Below are positions 4,670 to 56,109 of a stretch of DNA of 64,000 nucleotides, piece after piece. Each line of letters begins with the position of its first letter. Within the stretch, counting starts at the first letter, position 1. The notes under the pieces were generated by a model, which saw only the letters and a program-made list of their open reading frames with translations, searched no databases and had not been told where the DNA came from. The DNA is taken from the NCBI GenBank assembly GCA_023382335.1, contig JAMCPM010000006.1, positions 258,372 to 322,371 on the forward strand, written 5' to 3'. Origin of the DNA: Actinomycetota bacterium. Its GTDB lineage: Bacteria > Actinomycetota > Thermoleophilia > BMS3ABIN01. Made by a program: the position numbers and the translations under genes.

Positions 4670-4688
4670 CTGGCTACTCCGGTTTCGG

Positions 4689-5255
4689 CTACTGGTTGCG
4701 GCCGTTGATCATCGCCAGCACCTCGGCGCGCGTCGCCGCGTTGGTGCGGAAGATGCCGCGGACCGCCGAGGTGACGGTCTGGGCGGTGGAGCGGATGCCG
4801 CGCATGGACATGCAGAGGTGCTCGGCCTGCACCAGCACCAGCACGCCGAGAGGATCCAGCGCCTCGACCATGGCGTCGGCGACGGTCGAGGTCATCCTTT
4901 CCTGCAGCTGCGGGCGCCTCGCCACCACCTGGACTACCGTCGCCAGCTTGGACAGGCCGGTGATCAGCCCGCCCTCGCTGGGAATATACGCTACGTGGGC
5001 TTTGCCGAAGAACGGTAGCAGGTGATGCTCGCACATGGAGAAGAAGGAGATGTCCTTCAGCAGCACCATTTCCTGGTGGCGATCTGCGGGCATGGTGGTG
5101 ATGACCGAGACGGGATCGACTTCGAGGCCGGAGAAGACATCCTCATACATCGAGGCGACGCGCGCCGGCGTATCGAGCAGCCCCTCGCGCTGGGCGTCTT
5201 CGCCCACTCCCTCGAGGATAAGCCTGACTCCCTGGTTGATCTTCTCCAGATCCAT
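4689..5255 (-). CDS. folE: GTP cyclohydrolase I
   Basis: Catalyses the first committed step of folate synthesis, GTP to dihydroneopterin triphosphate. The 188-residue protein keeps the zinc ligands of type IA enzymes: C75 and H78 in MCEHHLLPF, and C148 in [13 protein letters not shown] start at 5255. It lies 43 bases behind ftsH, in the same order as in mycobacterial-type folate clusters. Confidence 0.97.
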
Positions 5256-5298
5256 GCGCCGTTCAGGCGTCGATGTCAGGAATGGATTCCATTCCGGG

Positions 5299-7293
<1,995 letters not shown>

Positions 7294-7384
7294 AAAAATC
7301 GTTCCTTTCTAAAACAGGATTTGATTCATTATCGCATATTTAGACACTTACACCTATGCCGCCACGGCAAGGTTTCAGGCCCCT

Positions 7385-7921
7385 TTATTCAAAACCTTCC
7401 TCGGGCAGGACAGCGATAAACCTTAGATTCCGGTATTTCTCCTGATAATCGAGTCCGTAGCCGACAACAAACTCGTCAGCAACCTCGAACCCCGTGTATT
7501 TGCAGGTGAAATCCACTTTTCGGCGCGAGGGCTTCGTGAGCAGGGAACAGACCTCGACGCTGGCGGGATTACGGGCGTTGAGATTTTTGCGCAGATAGCT
7601 GAGCGTCAGGCCGGAGTCGATGATGTCCTCGACAATGACCACGTGGCGGCCCTCGATGTTTGCGTCCAGATCCTTGAGGATACGCACGACTCCGGAAGAG
7701 TCGGTGCTTGACCCGTAACTGGAAACAGCCATGAAATCCAGCTCGCAGGGAACGGTTATCTGGCGGGCGAGATCGGCCATGAAAAAGACAGCGCCCTTGA
7801 GAACGCAGACGAGTAACGGGTCTTTGCCCACGTAGTCTTCGGAGATCCTGGCCGCAAGCTCGGTGACGCGGGAACGGATCTCTTTCTCACCAATAAGAAT
7901 CTCATCAAACTCGGTTATCAC
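7385..7921 (-). CDS. hpt: Hypoxanthine(-guanine) phosphoribosyltransferase
   Basis: Salvages hypoxanthine/guanine with PRPP. The PRPP-binding motif VVIVEDIIDSGLT lies at residues 94-106 and LKGAVFFMADL near 41-51; 178 residues is typical. The GTG start at 7921 overlaps the tilS stop (GTGA), so it is translationally coupled to tilS. The tilS-hpt-ftsH arrangement is widely conserved in Gram-positive bacteria. Confidence 0.96.
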   Translation of the reverse strand: MITEFDEILIGEKEIRSRVTELAARISEDYVGKDPLLVCVLKGAVFFMADLARQITVPCELDFMAVSSYGSSTDSSGVVRILKDLDANIEGRHVVIVEDIIDSGLTLSYLRKNLNARNPASVEVCSLLTKPSRRKVDFTCKYTGFEVADEFVVGYGLDYQEKYRNLRFIAVLPEEGFE

Positions 7922-9387: not shown

Positions 9388-9393
9388 CCGGTA

Positions 9394-9399
9394 ATTATA
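9394..9399 (-). promoter_or_regulatory. Predicted -10 box of the tilS-fol-nad operon
   Basis: Perfect TATAAT on the minus strand with six bases (TACCGG) between it and the tilS GTG. The expected +1 coincides with the start codon, and no Shine-Dalgarno sequence is present. No good -35 match is visible 16-18 bases upstream. The same spacing recurs on the other strand for the divergent crp gene. Confidence 0.6.
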
Positions 9400-9480
9400 A
9401 CAGAAGGCGAAGGCGGTGCATTTCGGCGCTGCGACGGCGCGCGGTCTGGCCGCAAGGCGGTGGATTAACCGGAAAAAGGG

Positions 9481-9486
9481 TAGAAT
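9481..9486 (+). promoter_or_regulatory. Predicted -10 box of the Crp/Fnr regulator gene
   Basis: TAGAAT (5/6 match) followed by six bases (GACCGC) and then the GTG start at 9493, again implying a leaderless transcript. An AAAGGG at 9475-9480 is misplaced for this GTG. It fits instead an out-of-frame ATG at 9485 that would give only 12 codons. Leaderless initiation at GTG is preferred. Confidence 0.5.
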
Positions 9487-9492
9487 GACCGC

Positions 9493-10191
9493 GTGGAAAA
9501 TGAAACCCGCAAAAGCTATTTAAAAAAGACGCCGATCTTTTCCGGGCTCAGTGACGAGGAGCTGGACGACGTCGTGCCGTACGTGGTCCGGCGGCAGTTG
9601 AAGCGAAACACGGTCGTCTTTCATGAGAACGATCCGGCAACGGCGTTCTATCTGGTGAAGACGGGGCGGGTGAAGATATACAAGGTCGGGCCGGACAATC
9701 GCGAGCAGGTACTGTCGATCCTGGGCGAAGGGCAGATCTTTGGTGATGTCCCCGCCTTCGACGGCGGGCCCTATCCGGCCACGGCCGAGACCATGACCGA
9801 TTCCGAGATCTATCTGATCCGCAGCCAGGATTTTCAGGAGCTGGTGCGCCGCTATCCCGAGATAGCGGTCAAGATCATCCGTGTGCTGGGACAGCGCCTG
9901 CGGCAATCGATGGAACTGGTGCGCGACCTGTCTTTCAAACAGGTGCCTCACCGCCTGGCGGGGCTGCTGGTCAAACTGGCCGGCGAGTATGGCCGGGAGG
10001 CTGGCGGTGACAGTGATGGGGTCCTCATCGATCTGCCGCTATCGCGGCAGGAGATGGCCGATATCGTCGGCACCTCGCGCGAAACCGTCACCAGGGAGCT
10101 GAAGAAGATGGAACGCGAGGGCCTGCTGAAAGTCGACCGGCGCATGATCACCATCATCGACTCCCAACGGCTGAAGGCCTGGGCGCGGTAG
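9493..10191 (+). CDS. Crp/Fnr-family transcriptional regulator
   Basis: 232-residue regulator with a cyclic-nucleotide-binding-type beta-roll (about 14-130), a dimerisation helix (about 130-155) and a winged HTH. The recognition segment is MADIVGTSRETVTRELKK (188-205). The protein contains no cysteine at all, so it cannot hold an FNR-type Fe-S cluster; the effector could be a nucleotide, haem/NO or another ligand. It is divergent from tilS and upstream of a zinc-ribbon peptide and a COX1-like membrane protein, which are plausible targets. The GTG start is supported by a -10 box at leaderless spacing. Confidence 0.9.
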   Translation: MENETRKSYLKKTPIFSGLSDEELDDVVPYVVRRQLKRNTVVFHENDPATAFYLVKTGRVKIYKVGPDNREQVLSILGEGQIFGDVPAFDGGPYPATAETMTDSEIYLIRSQDFQELVRRYPEIAVKIIRVLGQRLRQSMELVRDLSFKQVPHRLAGLLVKLAGEYGREAGGDSDGVLIDLPLSRQEMADIVGTSRETVTRELKKMEREGLLKVDRRMITIIDSQRLKAWAR

Positions 10192-10211
10192 CGGACGAGC
10201 CGCTTGTCCTG

Positions 10212-10225
10212 TCACGGGCCCGTGA
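10212..10225. promoter_or_regulatory. Perfect 14-bp palindrome downstream of the Crp/Fnr gene
   Basis: TCACGGG-CCCGTGA, 20 bases after the regulator stop codon and 167 bases before the zinc-ribbon ATG. Its half-site resembles generic Crp-family operators. It has no U-tract, so a terminator is unlikely. Function is inferred only. Confidence 0.3.
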
Positions 10226-10297
10226 AGAAGCAGACCCGTGATGAAGCTCACATCCGCGTTTGACCTACCGCATGTTTGTTCCATTGTCTGACGGTTA

Positions 10298-10312
10298 TCC
10301 TAATGGGTAGGA
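10298..10312. promoter_or_regulatory. Short inverted repeat upstream of the zinc-ribbon gene
   Basis: TCCTA-N5-TAGGA with perfect arms, 80 bases before the ATG at 10392, in an otherwise unassigned 200-base gap. It is a candidate operator; no -35/-10 pair could be assigned with confidence nearby. Confidence 0.25.
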
Positions 10313-10391
10313 ATGAACCGGCGGCGATCTGTTGTGGAAGATAGCGGTGACAGGCGCCGGAGAATATTACCTCTCTACCGAAGGAGCAACC

Positions 10392-10535
10392 ATGTCCGAC
10401 CAGAATGAAACCCCCAAATGCCAGGAATGCGGCGCGACCAGCGACCAGAAGGTTCTGCTTGCCTGCGTCTCTAACAACGAAGGAAGCTGGGTCTGCGTAC
10501 ACTGCCTGCCGATGCTGATCCACGGCGCCCACTAG
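10392..10535 (+). CDS. Small zinc-ribbon protein of unknown function
   Basis: 47-residue protein with two Cys-x2-Cys knuckles (C10/C13 and C35/C38), a further C25 and a His-rich end (H44, H47). This suggests a single structural zinc site. The start at the ATG 10392 is fixed by an AAGGAG at 10381-10386; a longer frame from 10332 lacks a ribosome-binding site. It lies 80 bases before the COX1-like gene on the same strand, so the two are probably co-transcribed. The family is not recognised. Confidence 0.7.
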   Translation: MSDQNETPKCQECGATSDQKVLLACVSNNEGSWVCVHCLPMLIHGAH

Positions 10536-10615
10536 AACCTTTCTCCCGATAGGGTTGCGGCTTTCCGGAAACGGGAAGCCGGCGGCCGCAAACTTGCTTC
10601 CCAGGAGGTGCCATC

Positions 10616-11080
10616 GTGAGTCCCACAGTGATCGGCTTCATCAAGACCAGCCTTTTGTCCCTGGCCACCGGCGTCATCCTGGGTGTGCTGATGGCGCTGC
10701 ATGTGTTGCCTCAGGCCGATGCGCCCCGGTACATCACCAGCGCCCACGCGCACATCAATCTTTTGGGAGCGGTGATGATGCTGATCTTTGGAGTCGGTTA
10801 TCACATACTGCCGCGCTTCAGCGGCCGGCCGCTGCATAACGAAAGACTTTCGAGTGTGCAGCTGTGGATCAACGTCACGGGCCTGGTGGGAATGTTCGTT
10901 GCTCTGCTGGTTGCGGCTTACTCTACCGCAGATGTCTTGCGCTATGCCGTCGCCCCGTTCGGAGCCTTATACGCACTGGGAGGCGTCATCTTCGCCTACA
11001 ACATGTGGATGACGATCTCCGGCGCCCTGCCGGCGCCGACGCCTATCAAGCCGGCGCCGAAGCCGCCGGTGAAGCCTTAG
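10616..11080 (+). CDS. COX1-like small membrane protein (haem-copper oxidase subunit I-related)
   Basis: 154-residue protein with four predicted membrane helices (about 7-27, 43-62, 79-100, 108-130). The segment AHAHINLLGAVMMLIFGVGYH, with the pattern HxH-x9-M-x7-YHxLPR, resembles short proteins related to subunit I of cbb3-type oxidases/NO reductases. Known oxidases have 12 or more helices, so this is not a complete catalytic subunit. A Pro/Ala-rich cytoplasmic tail ends the protein. GTG start with AGGAGGTG at 10603-10610. Possible roles are haem binding or respiratory assembly; the function is unproven. Confidence 0.65.
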   Translation: MSPTVIGFIKTSLLSLATGVILGVLMALHVLPQADAPRYITSAHAHINLLGAVMMLIFGVGYHILPRFSGRPLHNERLSSVQLWINVTGLVGMFVALLVAAYSTADVLRYAVAPFGALYALGGVIFAYNMWMTISGALPAPTPIKPAPKPPVKP

Positions 11081-11130
11081 GGGTTTGCCGGTGAAGCCTG
11101 AGGGTTTGCCGGTGAAGCCGTAGGGTTTAT
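11068..11130 (+). repeat. Three tandem ~21-bp units at the 3' end of the COX1-like gene
   Basis: Units start at 11068, 11090 and 11111 with the core GGTGAAGCC(n)(n)AGGGTTT. The first contains the stop codon of the COX1-like gene and the third reaches the stop of the converging DUF1858 gene. They look like a recent tandem duplication of the gene end. Confidence 0.8.
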
Positions 11131-11360
11131 TGCTTCTCCAGCAGCGCCCGGAGGTCGGCTACGACATCCTCGGCGTTGACGCCGTGCATGGTGGCACCGA
11201 AATTTATCGACTCCATGCGGATGCCGGGGCAGGTGAAACAACCATTCCCAAAATATTTTTCGATCACTTCCGCCCCGCCGGGTAGCCGTTCTACCACATC
11301 GCCGATGATGGTCTCGCCATCGATCTCAGTAATCTCGCTGGTCTCGCTCGTCTCGCTCAT
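11127..11360 (-). CDS. DUF1858 domain protein (hybrid-cluster-protein-associated disulfide family)
   Basis: 77-residue protein. It has a Ser/Glu/Thr repeat at the N-terminus (SETSETSEITEID), then a DUF1858 fold containing the redox pair in GCFTCPG and the C-terminal helix region NAEDVVADLRALLEK. The ATG at 11360 has AGGAGG immediately upstream, so the longer open frame is discarded. Members of this family occur in anaerobes beside hybrid cluster proteins and nitrosative-stress genes (family knowledge). Here it converges on the COX1-like gene. Confidence 0.85.
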   Translation of the reverse strand: MSETSETSEITEIDGETIIGDVVERLPGGAEVIEKYFGNGCFTCPGIRMESINFGATMHGVNAEDVVADLRALLEKQ

Positions 11361-11494
11361 TTCTCCTCCTTGGCACTTCCTTGGCACTGATTGTCTGCCG
11401 TTTGTCTGCTTGCTATGCATACTCAAGTCTACCCCCGCCGGGGCCAGCCAACCATGACGGGCCTCAACAGCGGATGTGATTTGGCTCATATAAA

Positions 11495-11524
11495 AGGGGC
11501 GGGCCGCTTGCGCGGCCCGCCCCT
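11495..11524 (-). terminator. Rho-independent terminator of hppA
   Basis: Perfect 13-bp GC-rich stem (11495-11507 with 11512-11524) and a 4-base loop, followed on the minus strand by TTTTATAT. It lies 40 bases beyond the hppA stop codon. Confidence 0.85.
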
Positions 11525-11563
11525 GGTGGCTCCAGTCACATCCCTTGCGGGACGCGGATTAGC

Positions 11564-13660
11564 TTATTTGTTGGTCAGGTATGGCACGATCAGCAGTGCC
11601 ACGATGTTGACGACCTTGATCATCGGGTTGATGGCCGGGCCGGCAGTATCCTTGTAGGGGTCGCCTACGGTGTCGCCGGTAACCGCGGCTGCGTGGGCGT
11701 CAGAGCCCTTGCCGCCGTATTTTCCATCCTCGATGAGTTTCTTGGCGTTATCCCAGGCGCCGCCACCGCTGGTCATGGAGATGGCAAGGAACAGGCCGGT
11801 GACGATGCTTCCCACCAGCACGCCGCCCAGCATCTCATAGCCGAGGCTCTCGGCGCCGAGGGCGCGCGGAACCAGGCCGATGATCAGCGGGGTCGCTATG
11901 GGAATGATGGCCGGCAGCATCATCTTGCGAAGGGCTGCCTTGGTGACGATGTCGACGCACTTGCCGTATTCCGGACGCCCCGTCCCTTCCATGATGCCAG
12001 GGATCTCGCGGAACTGACGGCGGACTTCTTCCACAACCATGCCGCCGGCGCTACCAACCGCTTCCATGCAGAGCGCGGCGAAGATGAACGGCAGCAGGCC
12101 GCCGATGAAGAGGCCGACGATGACCGGCGCGCTCTGGAGGGCGAAAGCCGACTTGAGAGCCTCCGGGTTGACATGCTTGCCGAGTTCGTCGGTATAGGAC
12201 GCGAACAGCACCAGGGCGGCCAGACCGGCGGAGCCGATGGCGTAACCCTTGGTGACGGCCTTGGTGGTGTTGCCCACCGCGTCGAGCGGATCGGTGATGC
12301 CGCGGACTTCCTCGGGAAGCTCGGCCATCTCGGCGATGCCGCCGGCGTTGTCGGTGATCGGCCCGTAGGAGTCGATGGCGACGACGATGCCGGTCATGGA
12401 CAGCTGCGCCATGACGGCGACAGCGATGCCGTAGAGGCCCGCCTCATAGTTGGCCAGCAGGATGCCGCCGGCGATGACGAGTACGGGCAGGGCGGTCGAT
12501 TTCATGCTGACCGCGAGGCCGGCGATGATGTTGGTCGCCGAGCCGGTCTGCGAGGCGGCCGCGATATGCTTGACCGGGCCGTACTTCGTCGCCGTGAAAT
12601 ACTCGGTGATGATGACGATGGCGCCGGTAACGACCAGGCCGATCAGGGTACAGACGTAGATGTTGCCCCAGCCGACGACCTTGCCGTCGGCCAGTTTCGG
12701 CAGAGTCCTCATGAGCCAGTAGGTCACGGGGATGAAAGCTGCGGCAGCCAGAACGCCACTGGCGATGAGGCCCTTATAGAGAGCCGCCATGATGCCGCCG
12801 CCGGCGCCGATGCGCACGGCGAAGCTGCCGATGATCGAGGCGAGAATGGAGACGCCACCGATGACCAGCGGGAACATGAGCGCCTTGTCGTTGTTCGGGA
12901 AGAGCAGCGAGCCCAGCAGCATGACAGCAACGGCCGTCACGGCGTAGGTCTCGAAGAGGTCGGCCGCCATGCCGGCGCAGTCGCCGACGTTATCGCCGAC
13001 GTTATCGGCGATGACCGCCGGGTTGCGCGGGTCGTCCTCGGGGATGCCGGCCTCGACCTTACCAACCAGGTCGGCGCCGACGTCGGCGGCCTTGGTATAG
13101 ATGCCGCCGCCGAGACGGGCGAAAACGGAAACGAGGCTGCCTCCAAAGCCGAGACCGATCAGCGCGTCAACAGCTTCCTTGGAGTTCAGGCCTCCCCACC
13201 TGGTCATGATGCCATAGTAACCGGAGACGCCCAGGAGGGCGAGCCCGACGACCAGCAGTCCGGTCACGGAACCGCCGCGGTAGGCCACGTTCATGGCCGG
13301 CTTGAGTCCGCCGCGGGCCGCCTCGGCGGTGCGCACGTTGGCGCGCACGGAAACCATCATGCCGATCCAGCCGGTTGAGGCCGAAAGAATAGCGCCTACG
13401 AGAAACGCGACGCCGGTATGCCAACCAAGGGCAATTGTCAAAATTACAAACAGCACTACCCCGACGATTGCCACCGCACGGGTCTGCCGGTTCAGGTAGG
13501 CTTTGGCGCCTTCCTGGATCGCGCCGGCGATCTCCTGCATCTTCTCATTGCCAGCAGGCAACTTGAGAACCCACATAATGAGGATGACACCGTAAACAAC
13601 CGCCGCGGCGCCGCAGGCAATGGCAATCGCCACCGCATTGTTAGATACAAAACTTTCCAA
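11564..13660 (-). CDS. hppA: Membrane-bound H+-translocating pyrophosphatase, K+-independent type
   Basis: Pumps protons with energy from pyrophosphate hydrolysis. The 698-residue, multi-helix protein carries [11 protein letters not shown] (193-203) and [12 protein letters not shown] (219-230), the catalytic pyrophosphate-Mg site. In the class-determining segment [10 protein letters not shown] (463-472), Lys467 and Thr470 occupy the positions that are Ala and usually Gly in K+-dependent enzymes. This points to the K+-independent H+ pump. TTG start at 13660 with GGAGAG upstream. It is a single-gene transcript ending at the hairpin at 11495. Such pumps help energy-limited anaerobes recover energy. 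Confidence 0.97.
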
Positions 13661-13972
13661 TATCTCTCCTCTCTATTCGCGGGATACCCCCGGTTTTTTT
13701 GAACGCCCCCCTGTTCATGCTGGACTCAGGGGTGGACGCAGTCGCACTTATCAGACCGGCGCAATTTATATCAGATTGACGGGAAAAGATAAAGAAGCGG
13801 CGCTACAAATGAATCCGGATTCAAGATAAGCTACATCAGATAAATCAATAGTGAATTGCAGAATGCATCATTCATCGTGATGAAACGGGTTGGATGCGGA
13901 TCGGTTGAGGCCCGGCATGATGCCTACGGAGCGGTTCAGATGAGACTGGGCACGTGGCCCGAGGCGTGGTTG
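13661..13972. other. Intergenic region between hppA and the LysR gene
   Basis: 312 bases without a convincing gene. It holds the hppA ribosome-binding site and presumably its promoter; TATAAA near 13765-13770 on the minus strand is a weak candidate. It also has a perfect palindrome GAATCCGGATTC at 13811-13822 and a weak hairpin in the hppA leader (CCCCTG at 13708-13713 with CAGGGG at 13727-13732). Base composition is lower in GC than the flanking genes. Confidence 0.5.
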
Positions 13973-14887
13973 TTACGTAAGGTCGGGCACGAGGCCCGTG
14001 GAGCCGCCACCGGTGACCAGCAGCTCGCGGAATTTGACTGACGCGGGAGATGAGTATCTGTCGCCGACCGTGATCAGGTAGAAATCGCGCTTCAGCACGA
14101 CATCCTTGACGGCAACCTGCTTGAGGATCCGGCCTTCGAGCTGCGCGTGCACTGCTCGCCGGGAGAGCATGGAAACGCCCAGGCCGGCCGCAACGGCGGT
14201 CTTGATGGCCGAAGAATTGCCCAGCTCCATGGTCACGTTCAGTTTGGAGATCCCCTGGCGGGCGAGCGTCTCCTCGATGACGTCGCGGGTCCCGGATCCC
14301 GCCTCCCGGGTGATGAAAGGCTCCTGCATCAGCTCGTCTTTCGTGACCGCGTCGCGCTCGGCCCAGCGGTGGCGGGGACTGACGATCAGGACCAGTTCGT
14401 CCTTCTCGATCGACTCCCGCACCAGCGAGGGATTCTGCACATCGTGCTCAACGACCCCCAGCGGGAACATTCCCGCCAGTAGCTGGTCCTCGATGATCCT
14501 CGTGTTCTCCACGATCAGCGATACCTTCACTTCCGGATAGCGCTGCTTGAACTCGCCGAGGTAGAACGGCATGAGATAATTGCCCACGGTAGTGCTGGCG
14601 CCCACGTGCAGCTCGCCGCCCTTGAGGCCGCGCAGGTCGTCGAATTCCTGGTTGATCTCATCCTCGATATCGAGGATCCGCAAGGCCTTCTCGTAGAGGA
14701 TATGCCCGGGCTCGGTCAGCGTAGCCCCCTTGCTGCCGCGGTCGAAGAGAACGACGCCGTAGCGGCGCTCGAGCGCCTGGATCTGCTGGCTGACCGCGGA
14801 CTGGGACATGAACAGGTCCTCGGCCACGGCCGAAAAGTTCCCTTTGCGGGCAATCGAGCAAAATGTTCTTAGCTTGGTTAGATCCAT
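13973..14887 (-). CDS. LysR-family transcriptional regulator
   Basis: 304 residues: N-terminal winged HTH (SAVAEDLFMSQSAVSQQIQ, 19-37) and a periplasmic-binding-like effector domain beginning at GASTTVGNYLMP. The overall pattern is closest to the CysL/CbbR-like branch. The start is ATG at 14887 behind AAGG; the longer frame adds 29 unrelated residues. It is divergent from the decayed methyltransferase at 15074, with 186 bases between the starts, so its target may have been lost or it may act elsewhere. The inducer cannot be predicted. Confidence 0.92.
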   Translation of the reverse strand: MDLTKLRTFCSIARKGNFSAVAEDLFMSQSAVSQQIQALERRYGVVLFDRGSKGATLTEPGHILYEKALRILDIEDEINQEFDDLRGLKGGELHVGASTTVGNYLMPFYLGEFKQRYPEVKVSLIVENTRIIEDQLLAGMFPLGVVEHDVQNPSLVRESIEKDELVLIVSPRHRWAERDAVTKDELMQEPFITREAGSGTRDVIEETLARQGISKLNVTMELGNSSAIKTAVAAGLGVSMLSRRAVHAQLEGRILKQVAVKDVVLKRDFYLITVGDRYSSPASVKFRELLVTGGGSTGLVPDLT

Positions 14888-45546: not shown

Positions 45547-48500
45547 TCATTCTACTTCGACCTCTGCTTCCTCTTCGGCTCCCTCTTCAGCCTGCCCTTC
45601 CACCGTCAGCTCCTGATCGGTCGCCAGCAGCTCGGCCGCCTCTTCGGCTTCTCCCTCCACGCCGGGGCCTTCCTTTTTCTTCAGGCCCTGCGACAGGTCG
45701 ATGCCAAGCTCTTCAGCGGCGCGGCGGAGCTCGTCGTCCTCCTCGATCATCTCGACGCTCTCGCCGGCTTCGGTCTCGATACCGACGTCGAGCCCCAGGC
45801 TCTGCATCTCCTTCAGCAGCACCTTGAACGACTCGGGGATGTTGGGCTCGGGGATGTTCTCGCCCTTGACGATGGCCTCGTAGGCCTTGACGCGGCCGAT
45901 GGTGTCATCGGACTTGATCGTCAGCATCTCCTGCAGCGTGTGGGCGGCGCCGTATGCTTCCAGCGCCCAGACCTCCATCTCGCCGAATCGCTGGCCGCCG
46001 AACTGGGCCTTGCCGCCCAATGGCTGCTGCGTGACCAGCGAGTAGGGACCGGTGGAACGGGCGTGGATCTTGTCGTCCACCAGATGCAGAAGTTTGAGGA
46101 TATACATATAGCCCACGGTGATCTTGTCGCCGTACGGCTGGCCGGTGAGGCCGTTGAACAGCTTCACCTTGCCGGCGGCCGGATTGGGCTCGTCGTTGTT
46201 ATAGGAATAGGTGATCTTCTTCTCAGGGTCGTGCTCGTAGCATTTGATCAGCGCTTCCTCGATCTCGCCGAGGCTGGCGCCGTCGAATACCGGCGTCGCC
46301 ACGTGTACCGGCGCCCGGAAACCGTTGCCGTCGTCCCAGCCGCGCGAGGCGGCCCAGCCCAGGTGCGTCTCCAGGATCTGCCCGATGTTCATACGGGAAG
46401 GAACGCCCAGGGGGTTGAGGATGATGTCCACCGGCGTGCCGTCCTCGAGGAACGGCATGTCCTCTTCGGGGACGATCTTGGAGATGACGCCCTTGTTGCC
46501 GTGGCGGCCGGCCAGCTTGTCGCCCTCGGCGATCTTGCGCTTCTTGGCCACGTAGACACGGACGAGCTTGTTGACTCCCGGGGCGAGGTCGTCGCCGTTG
46601 TCGCGGGAGAATATCTTGACGTCGATGATGCGGCCGCCTTCGCCGTGGGGGACCTTGAGCGAAGTGTCGCGCACTTCGCGGGCCTTCTCCTTGAAGATGG
46701 CGCGGATCAGTTTTTCCTCGGCGGTCAGCTCGGTCTCGCCCTTGGGCGTGACCTTGCCTACCAGCAGATCGCCGGCGTTGACCTCGGCGCCGATGCGGAT
46801 GATTCCGTCTTCATCGAGGTCGGCCAGCGACTCTTCGCTGCGGTTGGGGATATCACGGGTGATCTCCTCGTCGCCGAGCTTGGTGGAGCGGGCCTCGACC
46901 TCGTATTCCTCGATATGGATTGAAGAGAGCACGTCATCCTTGACCAGCCGTTCGCTGAGGATGATAGCGTCCTCGAAGTTGTAGCCTTCCCAGCTCATGA
47001 AGGCGACCAGCAGGTTCTTGCCCAGCGCCATCTCGCCCATGTCGGTGGAGGCGCCGTCAGCCAGCACCGCGCCCTTTTTGACGCGGTCGCCCTCGACCAC
47101 CAGCGGCTTCTGATGCATCAATGTGCCCTGGTTGGAGCGGGTGAACTTTTTGAGCACGTAGACGTCTTCGCCCTTGCTGGTCTCGACGATGATGTGCTCG
47201 GCGTCGATCTCCTTGATCTTGCCGGAGTTCTTGGCCAGGATGACGTCGCCGGTGTCGATGGCGGCGCGGAACTCGATGCCGGTGCCGATCAGCGGCGCCT
47301 GGGATACCAGCAGGGGCACCGCCTGACGCTGCATGTTGGAGCCCATCAGGGCGCGGTTGGCGTCGTTGTGCTCGAGGAAGGGGACCAGCGCTGTCGCCAC
47401 CGAAACGATCTGCTGCGGCGAGACGTCCATGAAGTCGACTTCCTTGGGCTTGACGGTTACTACCTCGCCGTCGCGGGTACGGGCCAGCACGTTCATGTTG
47501 TCCGGGAACTTGCCGGTCTTGGGATTGAACTCGGCGTTGGCCTGGGCGATGACGTACTTGTCTTCCTCGCTGGCGTCCAGGTAAACGATCTCAGTGGTGA
47601 CCTTGCCCTTCTCCACCTTGCGGTAAGGAGTCTGGATGAAACCGAACTCATTCACCGTGGCAAATGACGAGAGCGAGCCGATGAGGCCGATGTTCGGGCC
47701 TTCAGGAGTCTCGATCGGGCACATGCGGCCGTAGTGGGTCGGATGCACGTCGCGGACCTCGATCGGGGCCCGCTCACGCGTCAGGCCGCCGGCGCCCAGG
47801 GCGCTCAGGCGGCGGCGATGCGTCAGGGCGGCCAGGGTATTGGTCTGGTCCAGGAACTGCGACAGCTGTGAGGAGCCAAAGAACTCCTTGAGCGCCGCGA
47901 CCACGGGCCGTATGTTGATAATATGCTGAGGCGTGATAGCGTCGACGTCCTCGGTGGTCATGCGCTCCTTGACCACGCGCTCCATGCGGTAGAGGCCGAT
48001 GCGGAATGCTTCCTGCACCAGCTCGCCGACGGTGCGCAGCCGGCGGTTGCCGAAATGCTCGTACTCGTCGAGGTCGTGGGTGATCTCCTCGCGGGGCATT
48101 CCCTTGGCCTCGGCCGCGAAATCGACCGTATCCTCGGGGATCTCCAGCTTCTCCGGCAAGATGAGCAGAGCGCGGATCAGCTCGAGGATGTCGTCGTTGG
48201 TCAGCGTCCGAACGTCCGGCTTCACATTGAGGCCGAGGCGCGTGTTGAGCTTATAGCGGCCGACCTTGGTCAGGTCGTAGCGCTTGGGGTCGAAGAAGAG
48301 CGCCTTGATCAGCGACTTGGAGCTCTCCAGGCTGGGCGGCTCGCCCGGGCGCTGCTTCTTGAACAGCTCCACCAGCGCCGCTTCCTGGCTCTCGGTAGTG
48401 TCCTTGTCCAGGGTCTTGTCTATGTAAATGGAATTCTTGCCCTTGCCCCAGATCCATTCGGTCTCTTCCTTGCCGTCCTTCTTCCTGGTCTTCTTCTCCA

Positions 48501-49143
48501 GGGCAAACAGCTTGCGGATGTCGTCATCGCCGCCGTAACCCAGCGCGCGCAGCAGCACCGTCACCGGCAGTTTGCGCTTGCGGTCGATGCGGACATTGAC
48601 GATGCCCTTCTTGTCGATCTCGAGCTCCAGCCAGGACCCGCGTGAGGGCATGAGGTTGGCGATGAACATCTGCTTGGCCGAGTCCTTGGGCTCCATGACA
48701 TAAGCGCCCGGGGAACGGACCAGTTGGGTGACGACGACACGCTCGGTGCCGTTGATGATGAAGGTTCCCCACTCGGTCATCATGGGAAAGTCGCCCATGA
48801 ACACCGACTGCTCGCGGATCTCGCCGGTCTCCTTGTTGATGAACCGGACGGTCATGAACAGCGGGGCGGAGTAGTTGCCGTCCTTGTCGCGGCACTCCTC
48901 GATACTGCTGGTCGGGGGCTCGAAATGATGCTCGCCGAACTCGACGGCCAGAGTGCCGGTGTAGTCCTCGATCGGTGAGATGTCAGCGATGGTCTCGCGC
49001 ACGCCTTCATCAAGGAACCACTCGTAGGAACTTTTCTGAATATCGATGAGGTTGGGGACCTCTAAAATCTTTTCGAGTTTGGAGAAGGATCTCCGTGGGC
49101 GGGGACTTACAGCGTAGTCAGACAGTTGCTCCAAAAGGCTCAC
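45547..49143 (-). CDS. rpoB: DNA-directed RNA polymerase subunit beta
   Basis: 1198 residues. The rifampicin-pocket region [20 protein letters not shown] ... [10 protein letters not shown] keeps the key Asp, His and Ser of sensitive enzymes, with Ala where E. coli has Pro in SALGPGG. Catalytic-centre residues and the C-terminal anchor ([22 protein letters not shown]) are present. The last ~50 residues are a Glu/Ala/Val-rich acidic tail. GTG start at 49143. It has its own promoter and is not directly behind rplL as in most bacteria. Confidence 0.98.
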
Positions 49144-49404: not shown

Positions 49405-51990
49405 TTATCCAAACAGCTCGTAATCGCCTTCGATGAACTTCTGGGCATACTCTTTTACGGCGCCATCACTGGTCAGCATGGCGTCCAGCTGGCGGGTAAA
49501 GGCCATCAACCGGCCGGCCTGGTCGAGCAGGCGCACTGTCTCCTCCTGGCTGATATTCGTGATCGTGGCTGTGATCAGATCGCCCTTGGCCCGGGAAGCA
49601 AACCCGAGATGGTCGAGGATTATCTCCAGCATCTCGATGCGGCGAAGCCGCTTGGAGAGGTCGGCTGCGCCTCCGAGGAAGCGGAAATATATGTGATTGC
49701 TGGCGGCCCGCTGGCTGGCAAAACAGTCGACGACTGTGTAGTGGTAACCAAAACGGACGGCCAGATTCATGTAGAAGTGGGAGATCACAGCCAGGTTGAT
49801 ATCGACATCTTCGAGCAGGGAGCCCGTGCGCATGCTGGCGGTGAAGAAGTCGGAGATGCTGATGGGGACCCCTCCCTTGCGCCAGGCGCCAGGAAAAGAC
49901 ATGCCGTCCAGTATCGCCCTCAGCGGCACCGAGGCCACCTCGTCGACGCCGATGACGTCGCCGGCGCCGGCAGCCAGTCCGGCGCCGATATCGATCACGT
50001 GGATGTTATCCATGAACGGGATGTCCAGCCGTTTCAGCGCCGGCCCGCGCTCGGCGTGCCTCGAGGCTTCGATCAGTTCCCGCATCGATTTTTCATGGAT
50101 GAACCTGAGGATATCGTGGATGGTGCGGCAGTTCTCAGGAGCGAAGTCGTCGGTGAAAGGGTTGACCAGATTCAGAGGCGTGATGTATTTCATCACGAAC
50201 TTGCGGCGCCGGAACTCATACAGCTCCTCGAGTTTGAGGAAGGTGTCGTGCTGCTCGTCGATGATCTCGCGGGCGATCCCCTCATAGACGGTCATGCTGC
50301 CGTCTTCGCCGGCCTGCAGGGTGATCTCGGCGCCGGGCTTCAGCACGGTGGTGGCGACCCTGGTGTTGACCACCGTGGGCACCCGGAACTCGCGGCTGAT
50401 GGAAGCCATGTGGCTGGTGGTGTTGCCGGCGTCGGTGATGATGGCCGCGGCGTAGGGCATCACCCGCGCATAGCGGGGTGAGTCATGCCGGGCCACCAGA
50501 ATCGCGTCCCGCGGGAATTCCTCGAGAGCCTCCGGGGAGCTGGCGAAAAATACCCTGCCGCCGACAGCACCGGGCTGCACGACGTTGCCCTTGTTGTGCA
50601 GGAGCACGTTGTGCCCGGCCGTCGAAGCCTGGCCCGGACCCGCTTCGTGCGGGCCTCGTTCCTCAGCCGCTTCCCGAAGACCCACCGCCGGAGCCGCCCG
50701 CTCGATCCTCAGCGGCCGCGCCTGCAGTATCACCACGCGGCCGTTTGCGTCCAGCGCCCATTCGATATCCTGCGGGCGCCGGTAGAATTCCTCGATGGCC
50801 AGCGCCTTGTGGACGATATCCTCGAGGTCCCTGGGCGCCAGGGAAAAGGCGTGGCGCCTGTCGCCGGCCGTGTCGATCTCACGCACGCCGGCTTCGGCCG
50901 CAAGAGCCGTCATCGTCTCTTTCCTGCCGAGGGTCCTTTGGGCCACCTCGAAGGGAGCGGTCTTCTCTACCACGAACCTGTCGGCGTCAGCCGTGCCCTC
51001 GACCACGGACGGGCCCAACCCCCAGGACGAGTTGATCACCATGACGCTGTCGTCGCCGCCAAGGGGGTCGGCGGTGTAGGCAACGCCGCTGGCGGCGGCA
51101 TCGACCATGGCGACGCAGCCTACCGCCATCCGCAGACTTCCCGGCCGGTAACCCAGCCGCCGCTGGTAAGCCATGGCTTCGTCGGAAAAAAGGCTGGCGG
51201 CTACCCGCCGGTATGCATCCCCGACAGCCGCGGTCTCGGCCGGGACTCCCAGCACCGTTTCGAACTGACCGGCAAAGGAAAAGAAACCATCCTCCTCTTC
51301 GGCGCTGCTTCTGACCGCCACATTGCAGCCGCCGCAGCGGCTGCGGAGCCAATCCAGGGCCACGTTCAGGTCACTTTCAAGGGAAGGCGGAATGCTCCCG
51401 GCAAGGATCCGCTCGCGCAGCCGGCGCCGGCGCCCGGGCTCGTCGCCGTCGCTCTCCAATGAGGCGATGGCCTCACCGAGCTGGTTGTGCCGGATAAATT
51501 CCTCAAAGGCGAAGATCGTCAGCGCAAAGCCGTCAGGGGCCGGCAACCCCAGCCTGTTCCTGATTTCCGCCAGATGAAAATTCTTGCCCCCCACTTCGCG
51601 CGCCATCGCCGGTGTGATCTCCTCGAAGCGGACGGTCAGCCGCTCCAGCGGCCGGGCGTCTCCGGCAACGAGGGATTCGATATGCTCATCGATCTCTTCA
51701 AAGGCGCGCGTGAGCGCAGGGTATGACCTGGCCGTCAGCTGGTTGAAATCCTTCAGCGAGACACGCACGCTCGCGGCCAGGTCGGAGTAGGCCTTGCGCA
51801 GATAGACGATGTCGAAAAGGTAGCCGCCGCTCATGGTCTCGCCCATATCGGTGATGATCTCCAGGGCGCGGCTGTTGTCGTCCATGACCCTCTTGTAAGC
51901 GGCAAAGGCCGCGCGCACGTCGACCGTGCCGCCCTCGTTGCGGCCGGCATACCTTCCCACCAGGGATAGCATTTTCTGCCTGAGTGTCAA
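49405..51990 (-). CDS. PEP-synthase-like phosphotransferase with unrecognised C-terminal half
   Basis: 861 residues. After a helical N-terminal region (1-120) comes a PPDK/PEP-synthase ATP-binding domain: VGGKNFHLAEI (133-143), VRSSAEEEDGFFSFAGQFET (226-245), SSWGLGPSVVEG (321-332), DIEWALD (408-414) and ILQARP (421-426). Then comes the swivelling phosphohistidine domain, with His527 in NTTSHMASISRE. The pyruvate/PEP TIM barrel expected next is not recognisable. Residues 580-861 instead carry IDIGAGLAAGAGDV, FYMNLAVRFGYHYTVVDCF and a helical end. TTG start at 51990 abuts the response regulator stop; ATG at 51972 is an alternative. Substrate unknown. Confidence 0.8.
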   Translation of the reverse strand: MTLRQKMLSLVGRYAGRNEGGTVDVRAAFAAYKRVMDDNSRALEIITDMGETMSGGYLFDIVYLRKAYSDLAASVRVSLKDFNQLTARSYPALTRAFEEIDEHIESLVAGDARPLERLTVRFEEITPAMAREVGGKNFHLAEIRNRLGLPAPDGFALTIFAFEEFIRHNQLGEAIASLESDGDEPGRRRRLRERILAGSIPPSLESDLNVALDWLRSRCGGCNVAVRSSAEEEDGFFSFAGQFETVLGVPAETAAVGDAYRRVAASLFSDEAMAYQRRLGYRPGSLRMAVGCVAMVDAAASGVAYTADPLGGDDSVMVINSSWGLGPSVVEGTADADRFVVEKTAPFEVAQRTLGRKETMTALAAEAGVREIDTAGDRRHAFSLAPRDLEDIVHKALAIEEFYRRPQDIEWALDANGRVVILQARPLRIERAAPAVGLREAAEERGPHEAGPGQASTAGHNVLLHNKGNVVQPGAVGGRVFFASSPEALEEFPRDAILVARHDSPRYARVMPYAAAIITDAGNTTSHMASISREFRVPTVVNTRVATTVLKPGAEITLQAGEDGSMTVYEGIAREIIDEQHDTFLKLEELYEFRRRKFVMKYITPLNLVNPFTDDFAPENCRTIHDILRFIHEKSMRELIEASRHAERGPALKRLDIPFMDNIHVIDIGAGLAAGAGDVIGVDEVASVPLRAILDGMSFPGAWRKGGVPISISDFFTASMRTGSLLEDVDINLAVISHFYMNLAVRFGYHYTVVDCFASQRAASNHIYFRFLGGAADLSKRLRRIEMLEIILDHLGFASRAKGDLITATITNISQEETVRLLDQAGRLMAFTRQLDAMLTSDGAVKEYAQKFIEGDYELFG

Positions 51991-52359
51991 TTACGAAGCT
52001 TCCGCCAGCGCCTTGCTGATCGATTCCTTGAGGTCCTTGATCCTTACCGGTTTGGGGAAGAAATCGAAGACGTCGGCCTTGATCGCCTCGATAGCGACGT
52101 CGAGGTCGGCAAAAGCCGTGATCATGATCACCTTCGTGTCCGGATGCGTCTGCTTGACCGTCCGCAGCACTTCGAGCCCGTCGATTCCTTTCATCTTGAG
52201 GTCGGTGACCACGACGTCGAAATCAGTCTCCTGCAGCCGCTTCAGAGCCGGGTCGGCATTGAGGAAGGTCTCGACTTCATAGCCCTCCTCCTCGAGCGAT
52301 ATCTTCGCCATGTCACCGACGATCTTCTCGTCATCGATGACCATTATCCTTGTGCTCAT
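51991..52359 (-). CDS. Receiver-only response regulator
   Basis: 122 residues, a single CheY-like domain: acidic pocket D9/D10, phospho-acceptor D53 (VVVTDLKMKG), T81 and K103 (FFPKPV). There is no output domain. Its start overlaps the histidine kinase stop (ATGA) and its stop touches the PEP-synthase-like start, so it should be made with both. It may act on the phosphotransferase or the DUF202 proteins by direct contact; inferred. Confidence 0.95.
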   Translation of the reverse strand: MSTRIMVIDDEKIVGDMAKISLEEEGYEVETFLNADPALKRLQETDFDVVVTDLKMKGIDGLEVLRTVKQTHPDTKVIMITAFADLDVAIEAIKADVFDFFPKPVRIKDLKESISKALAEAS

Positions 52360-53765
52360 TGGTTTCCTTTCTGGTTACGGTTGACTGGAAGCTGGATTGT
52401 GAAGGTCGTGCCGATTCCGGGGGTGCTCTCGACCCGGATGTTCCCGCCGTGATTTTTGATGATGCTGTAACTGACCGAAAGCCCCAGGCCGGTGCCGCCT
52501 TCTTCCTTGGTGCTGAAGAACGGATCGAAGATATGGGGCAGATACTCCCGTTGGATACCTTTCCCCGTGTCCCGGATTATGATGTCCACCATCTTTTCCT
52601 CGGGCTGCAGCCGCGTGCTGACGAACAGCCGTCCACCGGGCGCCATCGCCTGGGCGGCGTTGAGGAAGAGGTTGACGAACACCTGCTGCACCTGGTTGTC
52701 ATCTATAAATATGTCCGGCAATCCTTCAGCCATGTCGAGGCTGGTCTCGATGCTGGAGACGCTGAGCGTGTTCTGTACCAGCACCAGCGCCTTGGTGACC
52801 AGCGCGTTGACATCGATCCGCCGGGGCTTGGGCTCCTTGGGACGGGCGAAATCAAGCAGGTTGTTGACGATGCCCTTGATCCGCTCCGATTCCTGGTCGA
52901 CCCTGCGCATGAATTCGATCCGCTGCTCTTCACTCAGCTTCAAATACATGTCGTCATAGGTCTGGGCGATCATCGAGATGTTATTGACCGGGTTGTTGAG
53001 CTCGTGGGCGACGCCGGCCACCAGCACGCCGATCGATGCCAGCTTCTTCGACTGGATCAGCTCCTCCTCACGTTCTTCGAGCTCTTCAGACATCGAATTG
53101 ATGGCGTCGATCACAGGCCCGAACTCATCCTTGGGCATGGGCGTCTCTATCTTCTTGAAGTTGCCGGCGGATATGGACCGCGCCAGGCGCTCGATCTGCT
53201 TGATCGGCTCCAGGATCTTCCTTGTCACCGAACGGCTGGCGATCAGCGCCGCCACCAGCACGGCGAAGAACGAGGCGAACAGCAGCCATTTGGAGCGGGT
53301 GATGATATCGCTGATGCGCGAGCGCTCCACCTGGATGATGCGGTTGGAAGTGTTCTCGAGGGTCCGCCCCTTCTCACGTATGTCCGCCGCAGTCTGCACG
53401 TCGCGCGCATGCGTGGAGGCGGCCTGGTCGATGGCGGCGGAGTAATCATTGAGCCCGTTCCTCAGATCGTTGTAGCTCTGCTCGCCGATCACGGGAACGA
53501 TGTCCTCCCGGAACGATTCCATGATGTCGCTGGTCTGGGAGATGTTGCTCTGCATGTCGCTGAGCGCCTGGTTGTCGTTGAAAAGGAAATAGTTCTTCTC
53601 GGCAAGCCTCATGGTCAGGAAGGAGGTATTGAGGTCGTCGGCGATCTCCAGGAAGCGCTGCTTGCCGCTGACGCTGTTGAGCGACTGCACGGCAAAGCCC
53701 CCGATGATCAGGATGAGCACCAGGTAGACGGTATTGGAGAGAATTATCTTGCGTTCGATTTTCAT
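52356..53765 (-). CDS. Sensor histidine kinase with HAMP domain
   Basis: 469 residues. TM1 (9-28), an extracytoplasmic helical sensor of about 130 residues (30-158), TM2 (160-178), HAMP (about 178-232), HisKA with phospho-acceptor H254 in VAGVAHELNNPVNN, and HATPase with N369, DTGKGI (399-404) and GTGLGLS (424-430). The helical-bundle sensor resembles chemoreceptor-type four-helix domains. ATG at 53765; 33 bases after the preceding DUF202 gene. Confidence 0.96.
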   Translation of the reverse strand: MKIERKIILSNTVYLVLILIIGGFAVQSLNSVSGKQRFLEIADDLNTSFLTMRLAEKNYFLFNDNQALSDMQSNISQTSDIMESFREDIVPVIGEQSYNDLRNGLNDYSAAIDQAASTHARDVQTAADIREKGRTLENTSNRIIQVERSRISDIITRSKWLLFASFFAVLVAALIASRSVTRKILEPIKQIERLARSISAGNFKKIETPMPKDEFGPVIDAINSMSEELEEREEELIQSKKLASIGVLVAGVAHELNNPVNNISMIAQTYDDMYLKLSEEQRIEFMRRVDQESERIKGIVNNLLDFARPKEPKPRRIDVNALVTKALVLVQNTLSVSSIETSLDMAEGLPDIFIDDNQVQQVFVNLFLNAAQAMAPGGRLFVSTRLQPEEKMVDIIIRDTGKGIQREYLPHIFDPFFSTKEEGGTGLGLSVSYSIIKNHGGNIRVESTPGIGTTFTIQLPVNRNQKGNQ

Positions 53766-53798: not shown

Positions 53799-54884
53799 TC
53801 ATGCCTGGCGCGCCGGAGTAGTCATCAGCCGCCGCAGATCCGGCTCTTCCTTGCGGGCCGGCACGTACCAGAGCAGTCCATCGACGATCATCAGCACGCC
53901 GGCGGCTATGAGCAGCAGACCCCAGAGCGCCACCGGACTCACCTGGAAGTACTGCACCAGGCCGGCGCCGATTCCCAAAAAGACGATTCCCGTCCTGATG
54001 AAGGCCAGCCCGGTCCGCCCACGGGCGTAAAGGGTCCGGTAACAGCCGGCCAGGGTGCGATGCGCCGCCAGCATGTCGCGCTCGCGCGCCAGGTGGGTGC
54101 GCTCGCGGCTGGCGGGCTCGGGCCTGAGGACACTGCAATAGTTGGGAAGAAACTCAGCCAGGCGCGAGAGCATGGTCCCCTTGACCGCAGGCCGGAACGT
54201 ACATTGCAGTTCGTAGTTCTCAAGGAAGCTGACCGTGGCGGTGGTGACTTCCACCAGCGTCTGCGGCCCTGGCGCCTTCATCATCGAACGGCGGATGCGC
54301 AGGTAATGGAACAGGCCCAGCACGGTGACCGCCGCTCCGGCGACCAGCAGACTCCAGTACATCAACGTGGTCAAGGAAAGGTTGAGCTCGAGGACTGCCG
54401 AGGCGCTGGCGACCGTGATGAAGCCCAGGCCCCAGCGCAGGATGCTCAGCGAGACCCTCGCCTTGGCCAGATCGTTGCGGTAACACGCCATCCTTGTCCG
54501 CCAGGCAGCCATGGTGTTGCGCCAGAAAGCCAGTCCGGTGCGCTCAGTGCCGATGATCCTGCCGGGACGGTCGCTCAGATAATCCTCGATGTACCAGCGG
54601 ATGTCCCCGGCCGGCGCCCGCCGCAGCTCGTAGGGAGCGTCTTTCGCGATCCTGGCGATCTCAGCCGGTTTGACCCGGCCGGGATCCGCCGCAGCCAGCA
54701 CGACGGTCCCGCCTTCCAGAAAGACCGGGAATATCAGCTCGCGTGAGAGCGCTTCGGGATCCAGGCCCTCCAGCAGCTCGGGCGGCACCGGCAGCCGCTC
54801 GTCGTACACGATTGTTTCCGGGTCCGCCATCGCGGCTCCCGGTTCTGCATTCCCTATGTGATTGCCCGGGTTAGAGGTCGTCAT
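53799..54884 (-). CDS. Membrane protein with MshEN-like N-terminus and two DUF202-like modules
   Basis: 361 residues. Residues ~33-103 (PELLEGLDPEALSRELIFPVF ... IRWYIEDYL) resemble the small MshEN/type-II-secretion-ATPase N-terminal fold, which can bind c-di-GMP in some proteins. A degenerate DUF202-like module (113-196) and a canonical one (262-343, with GRTGLAFIRTGIVFLGIG and VDGLLWYVP) follow, each with two membrane helices after an Arg-rich amphipathic helix. ATG at 54884 overlaps the previous gene by 14 bases; ATG at 54830 with GGGAG is a good alternative. Function unknown. Confidence 0.75.
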   Translation of the reverse strand: MTTSNPGNHIGNAEPGAAMADPETIVYDERLPVPPELLEGLDPEALSRELIFPVFLEGGTVVLAAADPGRVKPAEIARIAKDAPYELRRAPAGDIRWYIEDYLSDRPGRIIGTERTGLAFWRNTMAAWRTRMACYRNDLAKARVSLSILRWGLGFITVASASAVLELNLSLTTLMYWSLLVAGAAVTVLGLFHYLRIRRSMMKAPGPQTLVEVTTATVSFLENYELQCTFRPAVKGTMLSRLAEFLPNYCSVLRPEPASRERTHLARERDMLAAHRTLAGCYRTLYARGRTGLAFIRTGIVFLGIGAGLVQYFQVSPVALWGLLLIAAGVLMIVDGLLWYVPARKEEPDLRRLMTTPARQA

Positions 54885-56109
54885 GGCTGAACACCACCTT
54901 GCCCCATCTGCCGCGGGGTTTGCCGTAATCGGGCAGGTTGATCTCCAGATCGCCGTAACAGTAAGGGAACTGGCGGCGGGTTCTCTCCGAGTAGCGGTAC
55001 CAGCGCAGGCCGTCGGCGATGAGGACGGCGCCCGTCAGGATCAGCGCCATGTCGAAGATCCCCCAGACGGGACTGACCGTGAGAAAGGCGATCAGGCCGG
55101 CGCCCACAGCCGAGATGCTCATGCCAGTTCGCACGAAGGCCAGGCCGGTGCGCGAATAAGCCATGACCGTCCGCAGGCGCGACATGAGGTTGCGGCGGTC
55201 GGCCAGCACCGTGCGCTCCAGCGCCAGGCCGGTGGTCCCCCAGATGCCTGGCGCCTGTGATGCCTTGAGCGGCGGATAGCTGCCGCGGGAAGTCCTCAGT
55301 GGCGGGAACAGTTCGTCCCAGATGCCCGGCTCCTGCAGCGAACGCTTGAAACGGCGCAGGCTCTCGAGGCCGGCGCGGTAGCCGGGCAGGTACCAGAAGA
55401 AACCCTCCAGGGCCATCAGGGTGCCGACAACGATGAGGAAATAGTCAAAATAGTTCCAGCCGGTGGCCGGCAGCTTCCTGACCAGGGCGATGCCGAGGCC
55501 AGCGAAGGCCACGCCCGAGCGCGTGAAAGCCAGGCCCATTCGTGATTTGGCCATGGTCGTCCTCAGGGAAGAAAGATTCGTCCGTTCTTCGGCCAGGTCG
55601 GTGCGATCGTTGGCGAGGAAACGCCTGCGCTCGACCGGGCTGAGGTTGCTCCAGCCAGCCCTCAGGGTTTCGGCGTCGGTGACGGTGGCGCTGCGCCTGA
55701 ATCCCGGCAGACCGCTTTCGCCTTCGTCTTCCACCTGCAAGACCGATATGCCCGGCGGCCGTGCCGGCGGGATGTAGTCAAGGTCCCTGGATGCGTCACG
55801 GCGCACGGGCAGGTACCAAACCAGTCCGTCGTAGATGGCCGCGGCCCCACCAGCCATAAGCAGCAGGTCAACCGGCAGGAAGAGGCCGGAGCCAAACGTC
55901 CTCAGCAGGGTGACGGCTATCGTCACCAGGGCTATGCCCGTGCGAAAGAATGCCAGACCGGTACGCCCCCGCGACATGGCCGTGCGCTGATCGGAGAGGG
56001 CCGAGCGGCGGTCCGCCAGATAGTTCCTGACTTTGGCCAGCGGAGTCCGCCCTTCGGGAACCGGATGATCCGCGTCTTCCTCAGGGATATCGATCGGGTT
56101 TATCGCCAT
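54871..56109 (-). CDS. Membrane protein with three tandem DUF202-like modules
   Basis: 412 residues made of three repeats (about 30-102, 168-243, 298-372). Each has an Arg-rich helix with RxxM/L-x3-RT, the signature R(T/M)GLAF-x-R(T/S)G, a first membrane helix, and a second ending in (D/E)G(L/F)xWY. Linkers are Pro-rich. DUF202 is normally a single module in small membrane proteins and in the membrane part of eukaryotic VTC polyphosphate polymerases (family knowledge). ATG at 56109 without a strong ribosome-binding site. First gene of the five-gene operon. Confidence 0.75.
   Translation of the reverse strand: MAINPIDIPEEDADHPVPEGRTPLAKVRNYLADRRSALSDQRTAMSRGRTGLAFFRTGIALVTIAVTLLRTFGSGLFLPVDLLLMAGGAAAIYDGLVWYLPVRRDASRDLDYIPPARPPGISVLQVEDEGESGLPGFRRSATVTDAETLRAGWSNLSPVERRRFLANDRTDLAEERTNLSSLRTTMAKSRMGLAFTRSGVAFAGLGIALVRKLPATGWNYFDYFLIVVGTLMALEGFFWYLPGYRAGLESLRRFKRSLQEPGIWDELFPPLRTSRGSYPPLKASQAPGIWGTTGLALERTVLADRRNLMSRLRTVMAYSRTGLAFVRTGMSISAVGAGLIAFLTVSPVWGIFDMALILTGAVLIADGLRWYRYSERTRRQFPYCYGDLEINLPDYGKPRGRWGKVVFSHDDL

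Follow-up and report, generated by a model that had tools for sequence, protein, structure and literature searches.

A PEP synthase-like dikinase family with another domain in the place of the PEP/pyruvate barrel, often encoded beside two-component systems

Rifampin phosphotransferase (RPH) has its acceptor domain in the middle, after the ATP-grasp domain and before a C-terminal swivel, according to the available part of its description (PMC4844700). The two-component phenolic dikinases HpeHI, CreHI and PpsAB are made of two proteins and follow an RPH-like domain order, and the available part of the article describing them reports no crystal structure of HpeH (PMC12167813). A third precedent is genetic. 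Using insertion mutants of D. vulgaris, Korte et al. 2014 (PMC4001038, cited here from the available portions) found that disruption of DVU0251, DVU0250, DVU0247 or DVU0246 gives equal growth with and without 100 mM nitrate. There, DVU0251 is TauE-like, DVU0247 is a receiver (360 bp) and DVU0246 carries PPDK-N and mobile domains (2235 bp). The authors suggest a leaky thiosulfate transporter as the entry route of nitrate, and refer to unpublished work in which homologous mutants were mildly sick with thiosulfate. Some of their data fit less well: the DVU0250 mutant had low fitness in the pool yet grew well alone, DVU0245 showed low fitness, and the mutant of the DVU0248 kinase had little advantage by itself. 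Those portions of the article carry no comment on the domain structure of the dikinase.

Here we describe a dikinase-like protein encoded in a window of 64,000 nucleotides (the whole stretch of DNA analyzed), together with the genes that accompany it (Table 1).

Table 1. Coordinates of the dikinase-like gene, its domains and the genes of its operon (positions in the window; residues in the numbering of the window protein)
Feature	Position	Strand	Detail
Dikinase-like gene, 861 aa	49405..51990	-	TTG is the first start, with an ATG at codon 7 as possible alternative
N-terminal helical region, residues 1-115	51646..51990	-	predicted helices 25-53, 61-86, 91-109
ATP-grasp (PPDK_N) domain, residues ~120-434	50689..51633	-	motifs GGKN, VAVRSS..ED, SFAGQ, QDIEWALD, ILQARP
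Phospho-His swivel domain, residues ~465-575	50266..50598	-	candidate phospho-His H527 in TTSHMASISRE (50410-50412)
C-terminal domain without known family, residues ~580-861	49408..50253	-	in the place of the PEP/pyruvate barrel
NCRTIHDILRFIHEKS, residues 620-635	50086..50133	-	near-invariant C621, H625, D626, R629, H632, E633
SNHIYFRFLGGAAD, residues 764-777	49660..49701	-	holds N765, F771, G773, G774
Stand-alone response-regulator receiver, 122 aa	51991..52359	-	Pfam Response_reg 1.3e-28; stop abuts dikinase start
Membrane histidine kinase	52356..53765	-	HAMP + HisKA + HATPase_c; 4-base overlap with receiver gene
MshEN + DUF202 membrane protein, 361 aa	53799..54884	-	Pfam
DUF202 membrane protein, 412 aa	54871..56109	-	at least 2 DUF202 stretches (Pfam)

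An earlier note on this DNA had proposed that the protein keeps the order of PPDK and PEP synthase, ATP-grasp and then phospho-His, and Pfam bore this out, with PPDK_N at residues 132-434 (E 1.6e-72) and the PEP-utilizers mobile domain at residues 492-560 (E 4.3e-17). Beyond these two, the Pfam search of the whole protein gave nothing, residues 1-115 included. By phmmer, the N. meningitidis PEP synthase 2ols aligns to residues 119-574 and ends there. The AlphaFold model of the whole dikinase has a mean pLDDT of 84.4, and its residues 112-572 superpose on the rifampin phosphotransferase 5hv3 (Z 38.9, 419 residues, 3.3 A) and on 2ols (Z 38.8, 371 residues, 4.5 A). K136, R227, E410, Q423, R425 and H527 are invariant in a 50-row full-length alignment of the family, and H527 is kept in 99% of 95 family rows; the roles of these residues are those that we assume from established PPDK and PEP synthase chemistry. 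Given that the ATP-grasp residues and H527 do not vary, the first half-reaction, from ATP to phospho-His, is very likely intact in the family, as judged from the alignments. The front two-thirds of the dikinase is common with PEP synthase; its back end is different and uncharacterised.

Regarding this back end, the same note had seen no motifs of the PEP barrel at residues 580-861. The PF02896 model of the PEP/pyruvate barrel had no match at E 1 among 89 C-termini of the family, against 162 bits for the positive control, a canonical PEP synthase (L001) that the genome of the dikinase encodes separately, barrel included. Aligned to the barrel of L001, the C-terminal domain reached a hhalign probability of only 0.09 percent. 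NCBIfam PEP synthase models align only as far as residue ~580 and far under cut-off; for TIGR01418 the dikinase scores 275 bits, with the cut-off at 739.75 bits. Residues 575-861 matched nothing in Pfam, NCBIfam or PHROG, nor any PDB sequence (best profile E 0.4). In the AlphaFold model of this domain (mean pLDDT 80.7), helices alternate with mostly paired strands, and neither the model nor the predicted secondary structure contains an eightfold beta-alpha repeat. One could argue from the shared order of the first two domains that this is a divergent PEP synthase whose barrel has drifted beyond recognition. The 0/89 matches, the hhalign value, the lack of the predicted repeat and the presence of L001 in the same genome have already largely refuted that idea, and we give it almost no credence.

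The structure prediction and fold comparison proposed in the earlier note thus returned no PEP barrel fold. Since Foldseek found no PDB match at E <= 0.001 and VIA-align reached a best Z of only 5.5, the C-terminal domain has no clear counterpart among PDB folds; a viral library likewise gave none at E <= 0.001. The best fold rows, the MotA C-terminal domain and red chlorophyll catabolite reductase, were discarded as being within the range expected without relationship. On the evidence of a predicted model, a missing match to a known fold does not make the fold new, and we make no such claim. A search for plasmid relatives of the domain gave none. Twelve columns are invariant in the 89 C-termini (L606, C621, H625, D626, R629, H750, F771, G773, G774, R784, D804 and D836, in window-protein numbering), and N765, P689, S687 and others are nearly so. 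With twelve positions held across 89 relatives, the domain is not chance sequence. The motifs that had been quoted from this half, as one that could hold a different acceptor site, are conserved in part, at D667, G669 and G671 in IDIGAGL and at H750 in YHYTVVDCF, and not over their whole length. The C-terminal half may hold another acceptor site.

The gene next downstream of the dikinase (45547-49143) reads by its sequence as rpoB, and we take it to be so. Hence, one could think of a rifamycin-type resistance enzyme encoded next to the rifampin target, all the more as its ATP-grasp and swivel domains can be aligned with rifampin phosphotransferase. This is very improbable: the swivel is central, at residues 492-560 of 861 and not C-terminal, a mismatch with the RPH domain order that had been pointed out before, and the NCBIfam model RIF_Ptrans_rph gives 174.7 bits against a cut-off of 999. 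Membership of the RPH or phenylphosphate-synthase groups was ruled out by this domain order. Among the relatives, a gene of rpoB length follows the dikinase in L019 and in none of L020, L021, L023, L024 and L025, so that the position beside rpoBC looks like a local insertion. PADLOC, searched for defence systems, returned nothing for the dikinase, the only matches being those of its receiver to receiver-bearing models.

On the other side, the dikinase closes an operon on one strand, in the order DUF202 protein, MshEN-DUF202 protein, histidine kinase, receiver and dikinase, where no overlap or gap between neighbours exceeds 33 bases. The earlier note did not mention this operon, nor the size of the family or its transporter context. 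Neither TauE nor a symporter is encoded in this cluster. The TTG start of the dikinase follows the TAA of the receiver gene immediately, and the two genes share one frame. At this junction (51988-51993), a single TAA splits the two; as the frame is shared, readthrough would give a receiver-dikinase fusion, in the reverse order to that of the natural fusion in L050 (see below). Being in one operon with a two-component sensing system suggests that the dikinase is sensor-controlled and does not make PEP. In 9 of 80 loci (L019-L021, L023-L025, L028, L030 and L077), relatives of the DUF202 and histidine kinase genes lie ahead of the dikinase; the titles of these loci name actinobacterial, deltaproteobacterial and Nitrospirota MAGs, among others. 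A receiver was called in six of the nine (L021, L023, L024, L025, L028 and L077). Together with the window protein and L022, whose contig starts at the dikinase gene, the nine loci make up a single clade (11 rows, support 100). The two DUF202 proteins (53799-56109) are conserved with the kinase, receiver and dikinase genes across loci of several phyla. DUF202 (PF02656) also covers the yeast polyphosphate-complex protein Vtc1, a tie that would suit an anion link and is only a lead.

The dikinase is no orphan. The search for relatives of the same architecture, also proposed in the earlier note, identified 377 stretches encoding relatives in one scan of genome contigs, and the family has no model of its own in Pfam or NCBIfam. 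Its C-terminal profile is found in 114 of the 118 dikinase ORFs of the loci gathered; of the four without it, L097 and L078 are cut by contig ends, L001 is the canonical PEP synthase, and one is a degenerate paralogue in L055. The family is present in 11 of 60 genomes near that of the window, its own included, and in 4 of 198 sampled from the same phylum, one of the four being a partial match. It occurs in 50 of 118 sampled genomes from the sulfate-reducer phylum to which the Desulfosudis oleivorans locus L062 belongs, where one genome has as many as 12 copies, and in 215 of 288 genomes from the family of G378 and G244 (Candidatus Desulfovibrio intestinipullorum locus L087), the names of the groups being inferred from the loci. 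Stops flagged within many matches of the G378 family were read as the terminal stop overrun by the alignment, on the coordinates of one case, L087/L109. In the open-licence literature searched, we found neither a description of these proteins as a family nor experiments on the enzyme activity of any member; a term search in Trotter 2023 (PMC10102598) gave no match.

Copies are in places clustered. L030 has four paralogues inside 11 kb (3630-14220), and two paralogues flank one receiver in L037, L040, L061, L064 and L068. The degenerate paralogue of L055 (3-2555, minus strand) is devoid of the ATP-grasp RSS..ED and the C-terminal Cys-His-Asp motifs, lies with a receiver and a kinase in a TauE/DUF4881 cluster, and is possibly a pseudoenzyme partner. 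Long-form dikinases of 1061-1136 aa, with an extension of ~200 aa, are encoded in L072, L083, L085 and L119, and a PP2C phosphatase gene adjoins three of these four, which suggests a second signalling mode. PP2C phosphatases recur as neighbours in a long-form clade.

We then looked at gene context in the best 80 of the 377 relatives. L103, L104 and L106, whose contigs are as long as those of L019, L021 and L020, respectively, and which are probably the same records, were left out of the counts. Histidine kinases, response regulators and other neighbours were labelled by phmmer with window or locus proteins (E 1e-5 or 1e-4), on genes called with a greedy longest-ORF script that masked the receiver in L019 and L020, and DUF4881, perhaps with others, in L125. 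At a distance of one or two genes from the dikinase, a kinase or receiver gene is found at 86 of 276 positions, compared with 63 of 559 further out (Fisher p 7e-12, for positions that are not independent within a locus or between related loci). At least one lies within three genes in 52 of 78 loci, and none does in the other 26. Response regulators adjacent to the dikinase are stand-alone in 39 of 41 cases, and those at a distance of three genes or more in 15 of 31 (p 1e-5), stand-alone meaning a length of at most 210 aa. In L050, from an Armatimonadetes MAG, the receiver is fused to the C-terminus of the dikinase, the only such case in 19 long frames scanned; in the other 18, no additional known domain passed the cut-off, and their extra length is probably open sequence upstream or an extension of unknown kind. 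The PP2C subfamily has no obvious receiver partner. A receiver adjoining or fused to its effector, the arrangement of a two-component output, is seen in the window operon, with the 39 of 41 adjacent regulators and in L050.

Lacking an output domain, a stand-alone receiver needs another protein through which to act, and the tight pairing, the in-frame abutment in the window and the one fusion make the dikinase its most likely target. The pairing and the fusion could also be read as a phosphorelay entry, in which the swivel phospho-His gives phosphate to the receiver Asp, or takes it from there, in a PTS-like way fuelled by ATP. Transfer from phospho-His to a receiver Asp is established phosphorelay chemistry, and the CBS and PP2C partners of some clades point the same way. 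We nevertheless hold this to be quite unlikely, as a histidine kinase, itself a sufficient phosphate donor, is usually present and the conserved C-terminal domain would need another role. Somewhat less unlikely is an ordinary metabolic dikinase with a small molecule in its C-terminal domain, the two-component system regulating only its expression or being a bystander. The many invariant polar residues of that domain are what a substrate site would have, and characterised dikinases with both domains act on small molecules (pyruvate, rifampin or phenolics), in the available parts of the sources. However, 39 of 41 adjacent regulators have, by their length, no DNA-binding domain and are therefore unlikely to act through expression, and what varies between contexts is transporter and sensor genes, not a catabolic pathway.

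The neighbours are indeed often transporters: in 38 of 80 loci, TauE/TSUP or a sodium-sulfate symporter is encoded no more than six genes from the dikinase. DUF4881, proteins of ~280 aa without Pfam match, CBS-domain proteins and Alph_Pro_TM also recur. In a quick tree with SH-aLRT support only, the DUF202, Alph_Pro_TM/TauE, symporter/CBS, DUF4881/TauE and PP2C contexts fall into largely separate clades. L099 and L100, paralogues from the window's own genus, have a receiver-kinase-receiver-TauE-dikinase-receiver cluster, and L125, from the Desulfovibrio family, reads TauE-DUF4881-receiver-dikinase-kinase in one direction (C-terminal profile 285 bits). DUF4881 itself (e.g. L054:5875-6510) was found in 51 of 149 sampled genomes of that family; in nine regions read, it is mostly accompanied by TauE and an ORF of ~280 aa, usually with no adjacent dikinase. 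Partners are clade-specific yet mostly membrane transport proteins, and a role in regulating or energising transport is therefore likelier than a fixed metabolic product.

Taking these data together, our preferred reading, to which we give a probability of roughly 0.5, is that of an ATP-dependent phosphohistidine dikinase that has another acceptor or effector domain instead of the barrel, and that is the output by which a two-component system acts on a membrane process. The membrane histidine kinase would sense a signal and phosphorylate the stand-alone receiver, which would bind and switch the dikinase. The dikinase would then move a phosphoryl group from ATP to H527, and with the swivel this group would reach an acceptor bound by the C-terminal domain. 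The outcome would bear on a membrane process, family-wide often anion transport through TauE/TSUP or the sodium-sulfate symporter, and in the window's subfamily on the DUF202 membrane proteins. Of these steps, receiver control, the second phosphotransfer with its acceptor and the DUF202 link are those that we infer. The phenotype common to the permease, receiver and dikinase insertions in the Desulfovibrio cluster favours this reading, with DVU0246 as a putative member of the family. More tentatively, such proteins may form a widespread two-component class in sulfate reducers and some other bacteria, in which the receiver switches a dikinase whose phosphorylation of a partner transporter, or of a dedicated small molecule, gates the uptake of sulfate, thiosulfate or a similar anion; we consider this possible and would not put it higher.

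Members of the family carry PEP-synthase domain annotations and can pass for central-carbon enzymes despite having no PEP site. If our reading is true, a sulfate-reducer genome may hold up to a dozen sensor-controlled phosphotransferases, and two-component signalling would gain a type of output that the open-licence literature searched does not describe. The nitrate-resistance phenotype of Desulfovibrio makes the question testable in genetically tractable strains, and bears on the control of oil-reservoir souring.

By comparison with known systems, the window protein shares with PEP synthase (PpsA; TIGR01418) and PPDK the order of ATP-grasp and swivel and the catalytic motifs; those enzymes differ in having the barrel, and the window protein in its extra N-terminal helical region. 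RPH and the PigC/RedH ligases likewise join ATP-grasp and swivel to a non-pyruvate acceptor domain. Unlike RPH, the window dikinase has a central swivel and its third domain last, with no sequence match to that of RPH. HpeHI, CreHI and PpsAB are also phosphohistidine dikinases with a substrate domain of their own, but in the window ATP-grasp and swivel are in a single 861-aa ORF. On sequence grounds, the window protein is not a PEP synthase, an RPH or a phenolic dikinase. In gene content, there is a likeness to DVU0251-DVU0245 and Dde_0597-0605, which, in the available portions of the source, combine in one cluster a TauE permease, a histidine kinase, a stand-alone receiver and a protein with PPDK-N and mobile domains. 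Gene content, an annotation without barrel and a length (2235 bp) close to that of residues 115-861 of the window dikinase agree with DVU0246 being a candidate member of the family. DVU0246 could also be of the degenerate kind, since the TauE/DUF4881 cluster of L055 holds a dikinase without ATP-site motifs. In the window, DUF202 proteins replace the TauE permease, the DVU0250 protein and PtxB of the cluster as there described.
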